Positions 1 through 2,016 of a stretch of DNA of 35,886 nucleotides are shown piece after piece; positions within the stretch are counted from its first letter, which is position 1; every line of letters begins with the position of its first letter. The position numbers were made by a program, and so were the translations under genes. The notes under the pieces are model-generated. The model saw only the letters and a list, made by a program, of their open reading frames with translations, had not been told where the DNA came from and made no database searches. The DNA comes from Candidatus Rokuibacteriota bacterium. GTDB taxonomy: Bacteria; Methylomirabilota; Methylomirabilia; Rokubacteriales; CSP1-6. The stretch spans positions 1-35,886 of the forward strand of contig QHSL01000029.1 of NCBI GenBank assembly GCA_003220435.1, given 5' to 3'.

Positions 1-50
1 TCGGCCACGACTACGGCGGACGCCTGATGGCCGCCTGGCTCGACCGCTGA
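1..50 (+). CDS. C-terminal end of an unidentified protein (partial)
   Basis: The third forward frame is open from the window edge and reads GHDYGGRLMAAWLDR before a TGA at 48-50. Only 15 residues are visible, so the family cannot be named. The GHDYGG start is reminiscent of an alpha/beta hydrolase, but that is only a resemblance. It points the same way as the amidohydrolase operon, from which it is separated by the 71-476 repeat element. Confidence 0.4.
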   Translation, partial: GHDYGGRLMAAWLDR

Positions 51-70
51 CCATTCCGGCGGTCGTGGGT

Positions 71-476
71 TCGACGGCGAGGGCGTGACAGGGTCGAGAC
101 GACCACGCGGCACGCGTCCGCATGCCGCTTGCGGCTGGGCTCCATCCCGGCGCGACGACGTCCGTCGCCGCTACCAGGGCACGGGTCCCTTCGACCCTGT
201 CACGCCCGCACCGTCGACCACACGACCGGTTCTCCGCAGCGTGGCTCACTCCTGAGCGAGAGACTGGTGACGGCTCGCTGCGAAGCTGGACCGCTGAGCG
301 AGAGACGGCGCTGGGTCAGGCGGTGAGGGTGCGGCAGGGGTCGAAGGAACCCGTTCCCTCCACGCGGCGACGGACCGTTCTGCGCCGGGATGGAGCCCAG
401 CCGCAAGGGTATGCGGACGCATGCCGCGTGGTTGTCTCGACCCCTGCTGCGCCCTCTCCGGCTGACCCAGCGCCGC
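71..476. repeat. Nested inverted-repeat element: two hairpin units in opposite orientation
   Basis: This fills most of the 496-base gap between the first gene end and the amidohydrolase. Unit 1 (71-217) is bounded by 71-97 and 191-217, which are inverted copies matching at 25 of 27 positions. Unit 2 (305-476) is bounded by 305-344 and 437-476, inverted copies matching at about 35 of 40. The units are inverted copies of each other: 91-170 pairs with 365-443 almost throughout, and several differences are transitions that keep G-U pairing in RNA. A short direct repeat CTGAGCGAGAGAC sits at 252-264 with a near copy at 293-306. Reading frames across it are of low complexity and look spurious. No transposase is present, so it resembles a MITE, a BIME-like repeat pair or a structured RNA. 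Bases 477-546 hold only the ribosome binding site of the next gene. Confidence 0.8.
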
Positions 477-546
477 CGCCCCTCGGCGCTCGCTTGACTC
501 ATTCGCGCGGATGCATCACGATCCGCGTACTGCGAGGGAGGATCCG

Positions 547-2016
547 ATGGCCTATTCGACAGACTCGAAGTCGACAGCGGTTCGCGCGCAGCTCGACCAT
601 CCGGTCATCGACGGCGACGGGCACTGGCTGGAGCCGGTCCCGATCTTTCTCGACTACCTGCGCCAGGTTGCCGGCCCGTCGGTCGTCGACCGCTTTACGA
701 AGACGGCGAGGGAGCACATCGAGCGGGGCTGGTACACGATGACGCCGGCCGAGCGGCTCGATCGGCGGCCCACCCGGCCGACCTGGTGGGGTGAGCCGGC
801 CAGCACGCTCGATCGCGCGACCGCGATGGTGCCGAAGCTCTTCTACGAGCGGCTCGACGACTTCGGGATCGACTTCGCGCTGCTCTACACCTCGCTCGGC
901 CTCTTCCACATCGCCAACCCGGACGAGGAGCTGCGCCGGGCCATCGCGCGCGCCGTGAACCACATGAACGCGGAGATGTTCCGGCCGTACGCCCACCGCG
1001 TCGCGCCGGCGGCGGTGGTGCCGGTGCACACCCCGGAAGAGGCGATCGAGGAAGCAACGTATGCGGTGCGCGAGCTCGGCATGAAGGTCATCATGATCGC
1101 CAACCACGTGCGGCGGCCGGTCCCCGCGTTCGCGCGGCAGGCCGCCGACGCCACGCAGGTGCGCCACTGGGTCGACTCGCTCGCGTTCGAGAGCGCCTAC
1201 GACTACGACCCGCTCTGGGCGAAGTGCGTGGAGCTGAAGGTGGCGGTGACGGCGCACTCCGGCAGCATGGGCTGGATGGGCCGCGAATCGGTCGGCAGCT
1301 TCACGTTCAACCACATCGGCCACTTCGCGACGGCCAGCCACGCCTTCGCGAAGGCCCTGATCCTCGGCGGTGTGGTCCACCGTTTCCCGTCGCTCCGGTT
1401 CGCGATGCTCGAGGGTGGGGTGGGTTGGGCCTGCAACCTCGTGACCGATCTGATCGGGCACTGGGAGAAGCGCAACGGCCGCGCGATGGAAGCCCACACC
1501 CGCCCGACCAACCTCGACCGGCAGCGGCTCAAGGACCTGTTCGCCCGCTGGGGAGGGCACGCGTACGAAGACAAGATGGACGAGCTGATGAATTGCCTCA
1601 GCCTGGTCCCGCCGTTCCGCTCGGTCGAGGAGATGACCGAGCGCGAGTACCGCGAGCAGCTCGACGACTTCGCGGCTGCGCACGTCGGCTCGGCCGAGGC
1701 GCTGCGCCGGCAGTTCGCCGAGCACTTCTACTTCGGCTGCGAGGCCGACGATCCGACGACCGCGTGGGCCTTCGACACGCGCGGCCATCACCGCCTGCAC
1801 CCGATCTTCAGCTCCGACGTCGGACACTTCGACGTGACCGACATGACCGAGGTGCTCGAGGAAGCCCACGAGCTGGTCGAGCACGGGTTGATCACGCAAG
1901 ACGATTTCCGCGAGTTCGTGTTCGGCAACGCCGCCCGCCTGCACACGAGCCTCAACCCCGACTTCTTCAAGGGCACGGTGGTGGAGGACGCGGTGGCCAA
2001 GGAGCTGGCGCGCTGA
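547..2016 (+). CDS. Amidohydrolase family protein (ACMSD-like, Amidohydro_2)
   Basis: A 489-residue metal-dependent hydrolase of the amidohydrolase-2 type, expected to have a TIM-barrel fold. The strand-1 motif is IDGDGHWLEP (residues about 21-30), i.e. D-x-D-x-H rather than the classic D-x-H-x-H. HSGSMGW lies mid-protein, and SSDVGHFDVTDM near the C-terminus supplies a late aspartate expected at the metal site. I start at ATG 547 because GGGAGGA lies directly upstream; the in-frame ATG at 511 adds 12 residues and lacks a good site. The sirtuin gene overlaps its stop, so the two are probably translationally coupled. Substrate cannot be told. Relatives include decarboxylases and hydrolases of aromatic or lactone compounds, usually annotated only as amidohydrolase. 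Cytoplasmic, with no signal peptide. Confidence 0.88.
   Translation: MAYSTDSKSTAVRAQLDHPVIDGDGHWLEPVPIFLDYLRQVAGPSVVDRFTKTAREHIERGWYTMTPAERLDRRPTRPTWWGEPASTLDRATAMVPKLFYERLDDFGIDFALLYTSLGLFHIANPDEELRRAIARAVNHMNAEMFRPYAHRVAPAAVVPVHTPEEAIEEATYAVRELGMKVIMIANHVRRPVPAFARQAADATQVRHWVDSLAFESAYDYDPLWAKCVELKVAVTAHSGSMGWMGRESVGSFTFNHIGHFATASHAFAKALILGGVVHRFPSLRFAMLEGGVGWACNLVTDLIGHWEKRNGRAMEAHTRPTNLDRQRLKDLFARWGGHAYEDKMDELMNCLSLVPPFRSVEEMTEREYREQLDDFAAAHVGSAEALRRQFAEHFYFGCEADDPTTAWAFDTRGHHRLHPIFSSDVGHFDVTDMTEVLEEAHELVEHGLITQDDFREFVFGNAARLHTSLNPDFFKGTVVEDAVAKELAR

Follow-up and report, generated by a model that had tools for sequence, protein, structure and literature searches.

MITEs, ERIC/IRU and NEMIS elements are 100-200 bp non-coding inverted-repeat elements that are dispersed between genes and keep their terminal inverted repeats conserved between copies. 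The REP, BIME and REPIN repeats (GTAG and CGTC super-families) are multicopy intergenic palindromes, found chiefly where the neighbouring genes converge or run the same way; they lie downstream of coding regions and often form dimers of opposite orientation (PMC3733652). REPs are 20-40 bp long and have a tetranucleotide foot, and the GTAG types are associated with a RAYT transposase (PMC3733652). In quasipalindromes, arm-to-arm correction through template switching is a known process (PMC8794818; PMC8604942).

Here we describe two palindromic units, A and B, at one end of the window (the whole 35,886-nt stretch of Candidatus Rokuibacteriota DNA that was analysed). They belong to a repeat of soil Rokubacteria that had not been catalogued before and that numbers about 30 copies in each genome; we found no paper on such a repeat in Rokubacteria in the open-access literature. 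As in the broad sense of REP/BIME, there are many intergenic palindromes located at gene 3' ends, some of them paired as dimers of opposite orientation, with several families per genome. Unlike the much shorter REPs, the Rokubacteria repeat is about 170 bp long, with a 78-nt core and copy-specific 43-bp stems, and its own genome (95.5% complete) has no match to RAYT (Y1_Tnp, PF01797), whereas control genomes were positive. The words enriched at its boundaries are CTAG and TAGC, not the GTAG of REP feet. Like MITEs, ERIC and NEMIS, it is a non-coding inverted-repeat element dispersed between genes; unlike them, its arms diverge between copies, the core alone is conserved, and no clean target duplication was found at the boundaries. 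The original prediction of a BIME-like pair or a MITE comes close, since the repeat is an interspersed palindromic family in which some copies form inverted pairs. It does not have the shared terminal repeats of MITEs: an arm taken from one copy fails to pair with that of another. The family lacks the tested defining features of both GTAG REPs and classical MITEs.

Units A and B and the anatomy of the family

Recomputation of the inverted matches gave the reported 25 of 27 positions for 71-97 with 191-217 and 35 of 40 for 305-344 with 437-476, and A and B are indeed inverted copies of each other (91-126 with 408-443, 33 of 36). The true arms exceed the extent first noted in both units (Table 1), with 38 of 45 positions matched in A and 39 of 46 in B. 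Chance is excluded, since the best ungapped inverted repeat in positions 1-700 scores 34 (+1/-2) and the maximum in 200 shuffles is 14. On either strand the 441-nt region folds as one long stem with z of about -17.5. Several differences between arms had been said to preserve G-U pairing, and this applies to some: on the plus strand, A and B together have 14 arm mismatches, among them four G-T/T-G and three A-C/C-A.

Table 1. Positions of units A and B and their parts in the window
Feature	Positions	Strand	Basis
Unit A	60-228	+	Arms plus core
Unit A 5' arm, G-rich	60-104	+	Recomputed inverted repeat
Unit A conserved family core, motifs CGCG-GCA-CGCG and TGG-GCT-CCA	105-183	+	Comparison of copies
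Unit A 3' arm, C-rich, paired with 60-104	184-228	+	Recomputed inverted repeat
Spacer separating tail-to-tail A and B, 77 bp	229-305	none	
Unit B	306-475	-	Arms plus core
Unit B 3' arm	306-351	-	Recomputed inverted repeat
Unit B conserved core	352-429	-	Comparison of copies
Unit B 5' arm	430-475	-	Recomputed inverted repeat

The upstream gene ends with TGA at 48-50, and unit A starts nine bases past this stop codon. At the other end, a TTGACT box (494-499) lies 18 bp beyond the outer end of unit B's 5' arm and upstream of an amidohydrolase gene (511-2016, plus strand). Window positions 1-256 and the contig end G000:C127:62059-62314 overlap and are 97.7% identical. It is likely that the palindrome interrupted the assembly here and that C127 is the upstream neighbour contig.

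There is no further copy within the window, as had been seen by eye, and about 29 others lie elsewhere in the genome. A BLAST search with unit A against its own genome (5.4 Mb, 147 contigs) gave dozens of matches on about 25 contigs, and a covariance model trained on 28 copies detects 31 copies there and 11-51 in each of eight other genomes of the genus. With this model, copies are found in 26 of 57 genomes of the family-level taxon, patchily spread over 11 of 24 genera; 38 genomes that belong to the phylum but not to that taxonomic family have none. The repeat also has no match in the phage, plasmid and viral contig collections. These counts, together with the two-sided stem changes described below, contradict the idea of a one-off local duplication without wider meaning, which had been reserved for the case of no other copy and no compensatory change. 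Nothing apart from the window itself speaks for such a duplication, and we give it practically no credence.

The comparison covered 132 distinct copies, drawn from at least nine genomes. Core length is 77-80 nt in all of them, and core matches are nearly all full length. The left half of the core is nearly invariant and contains two potential triloop hairpins (the CGCG-GCA-CGCG and TGG-GCT-CCA motifs); two inner pairs of the core covary. The stem around it has a median length of 43 bp and is 92% Watson-Crick, with a G-rich 5' arm and a C-rich 3' arm across copies. When the 5' arm of one copy is combined with the 3' arm of another, the median pairing is only 5 bp. The stem sequence is thus peculiar to each copy, yet complementary inside it. 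Arms of paralogous copies retain a weak likeness.

Gene 3' ends, locus histories and mobility

Of 117 copies, 83 have a co-directional gene on their 5' side, with a median distance of 16 bp from the gene's end to the element, and copies in convergent and divergent gaps number 40:6 versus 90:113 for background gaps in an 835-kb sample (p=7e-8), with genes called approximately by a simple GC-frame ORF script. Close opposite-strand pairs are arranged tail-to-tail in nine of nine cases, like A and B, and some of these loci are mutually orthologous. A tandem trio of same-strand copies about 180 bp apart is present at G007:C60:59877-60346.

The same locus is occupied in different species of the genus by 80 copy pairs, which indicates that many copies are old. 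Other loci differ between genomes. At the locus of the window, L031 has B without A, and L032, L036 and L039 are without both. The L019 locus lacks the element in G001, G003, G004 and G008, including the closest genome compared. Several element-free sites carry a short GC palindrome, as judged by eye, and these palindromes are compatible with deletion scars. At the L005 locus, G000 retains a minus-strand copy, G004 has a plus-strand copy and a truncated minus-strand one, and G008 has a fragment, a pattern as expected if an inverted pair had decayed differently in each genome. A coreless 20-bp hairpin in G006 was considered as an ancestral target; its stem resembles that of a hairpin with another core in G005, and it is more likely a deletion product for this reason. 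Separately, L035:1947-2205 consists of two core 5' halves joined in opposite orientations, which would suit either the loss of the central part of an inverted pair or a chimeric assembly.

Of 121 copies, 22 have CTAG near the 5' boundary and nine near the 3' boundary, versus a low background density, and some have it at both ends. These occurrences, the absence of the L019 copy from four genomes and the patchy distribution across genera would suit a non-autonomous transposon (MITE) that is still active and inserts at CTAG/TAG sites at gene ends by means of a putative transposase. However, CTAG is found at the stop codons of 93 of 735 genes here, which explains much of the 5' excess, and its role as a target site or duplication, confounded in this way, would be suggestive only. 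The arms are also not common to the copies as terminal repeats would be, the boundaries show no clean duplication, and most element-free sites could be losses, so that we consider an active MITE distinctly unlikely. No transposase is linked to the family, Y1_Tnp being absent from its own genome, and there are no near-identical arm pairs between paralogs beyond the overlap of contigs C127 and C92. With no linked transposase, no proven target duplication and no recent paralogs with near-identical arms found, present mobility would be conjectural. The copying of new arms from a source paralog was rejected on the same arm comparison.

Evolution of the stems

In 59 well-aligned ortholog stem pairs, 301 base pairs have changed on both sides and are still Watson-Crick, versus 181 changed on one side, counts that come from phylogenetically overlapping comparisons and do not equal independent events. 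Between G000 and G003, whose flanking genes are 8.7% diverged, 36 changes are two-sided and 32 one-sided. Transitions account for 110 of the 301 two-sided changes (37%); the corresponding shares are 46% for the core and 47% for flanking genes. A published benchmark from rRNA gives transitions as 61% of instantaneous compensatory changes (PMC8794818). Were the stems maintained by selection on RNA via G-U intermediates, double transitions should dominate; the lack of a transition excess argues against such intermediates and for arm-to-arm correction in DNA. Palindromes corrected by template switching would show two-sided changes at least as numerous as one-sided ones, without transition bias, as the stems do here, and correction of this kind would be the simplest reading of the substitution patterns, which come from MAG sequences. 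The arms would then remain complementary chiefly through quasipalindrome template switching, in which the hairpin extrudes at replication and a mutation in one arm is transferred to its partner; selection perhaps contributes. Template switching in quasipalindromes is described in single hairpins and RNA genes (PMC8794818; PMC8604942), whereas here a whole repeat family seems to be shaped by it.

The mismatches that persist in the stems are asymmetric. When each ortholog cluster contributes a single copy and the stems are read in the orientation of unit A, there are 66 A-C/C-A mismatches versus 20 G-T/T-G. The bias is 31:9 where both neighbouring genes are forward and 21:4 where both are reversed; it is independent of neighbouring gene direction, and the asymmetry therefore follows the orientation of the core. 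It could come from folding of the opposite strand, as RNA or single-stranded DNA, or from strand-biased mutation or repair, and it lies outside the predictions of the template-switch repeat model. A strand-specific asymmetry tied to core orientation, with a conserved core and a free stem sequence, would also fit an attC-like substrate for folded single-strand recombination, in which one strand is recognised as a hairpin. Copies are scattered singly or paired at orthologous loci, though, and form no cassette arrays, and we regard this explanation as highly improbable.

A functional RNA or 3'-UTR element is the main rival. The hairpin would be part of the upstream gene's transcript, or of one from the opposite strand, and act as a terminator, a shield of mRNA 3' ends or a regulator, and selection on the RNA would keep the pairing. 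The location of copies just past stop codons, the avoidance of divergent promoters, the strong covariation of the stem and the two covarying inner pairs of the core all agree with this. If the mismatches are viewed as wobble pairs, their asymmetry favours an RNA from the strand opposite unit A's orientation, but that is not the strand on which the host transcript usually lies. Neither strand of the conserved core folds better than its shuffles (mean z +0.41 and +0.49), and Rfam 15 gives nothing at gathering score, the matches present being all far below it. A T-run after the 3' arm, expected of an intrinsic terminator, was not seen by eye in the flanks inspected. Together with two-sided changes that are not transition-biased, the core folding and the Rfam result leave the structured non-coding RNA of the original prediction unsupported as the main reading. 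We consider a functional RNA rather unlikely; the results for core fold, Rfam and T-run favour a DNA repeat with a core that a protein would recognise.

Nature of the repeat and wider relations

The repeat occupies many loci with a conserved core and copy-specific complementary arms, lies at gene 3' ends, forms tail-to-tail pairs and is present or absent at a given locus depending on the species. We conclude that A and B are probably interspersed non-coding palindromic DNA repeats of a REP/BIME- or MITE-like kind; among the genomes covered, the repeat is confined to a single Ca. Rokuibacteriota family. The core would be retained through recognition by a putative protein, most likely the system by which the element formerly spread, and copies would later have been lost by deletion, some leaving short palindromes. 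The repeat is ordinary in kind, as an interspersed palindrome, and unusual in its mode of evolution.

Other long hairpins are present in these genomes. A search of 835 kb of two genomes found 24, mostly with G-rich arms, and none in first-order shuffles. A second family of long-stem hairpins has a 76-nt core, GGGATCCGACTGCTG...GCTGACTACACGGATCCC (L181-L184, L186; G007:C64, L216-L231). At the L024 locus, after the same gene, G000 and G003 carry the present family and G001, G004, G005, G007 and G008 the second one. A third type has 38-45 bp stems and a 15-16-nt loop, GAGTGGGGTTC(T)CGAA (G007:C64:53709-53814 and 157215-157305). It is conceivable, although we think it unlikely, that the present family, the GGATCC...GACTACACGGATCC family and the short-loop type belong to one class of long-hairpin elements with interchangeable cores, in which a core-driven, strand-specific process, reflected in the mismatch asymmetry that follows core orientation, builds and corrects the stems. 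If true, this class would represent a new type of element.

Perfect covariation in a stem is commonly taken to prove a functional RNA; in this family it seems to originate from mutation. Because the family offers many independent stems, and orthologs whose divergence is known, it could serve to quantify arm-to-arm correction in bacteria and as a calibration set for tests of covariation. To a little-studied and uncultured phylum it adds a class of repeats not catalogued before, one that seems to break assemblies.
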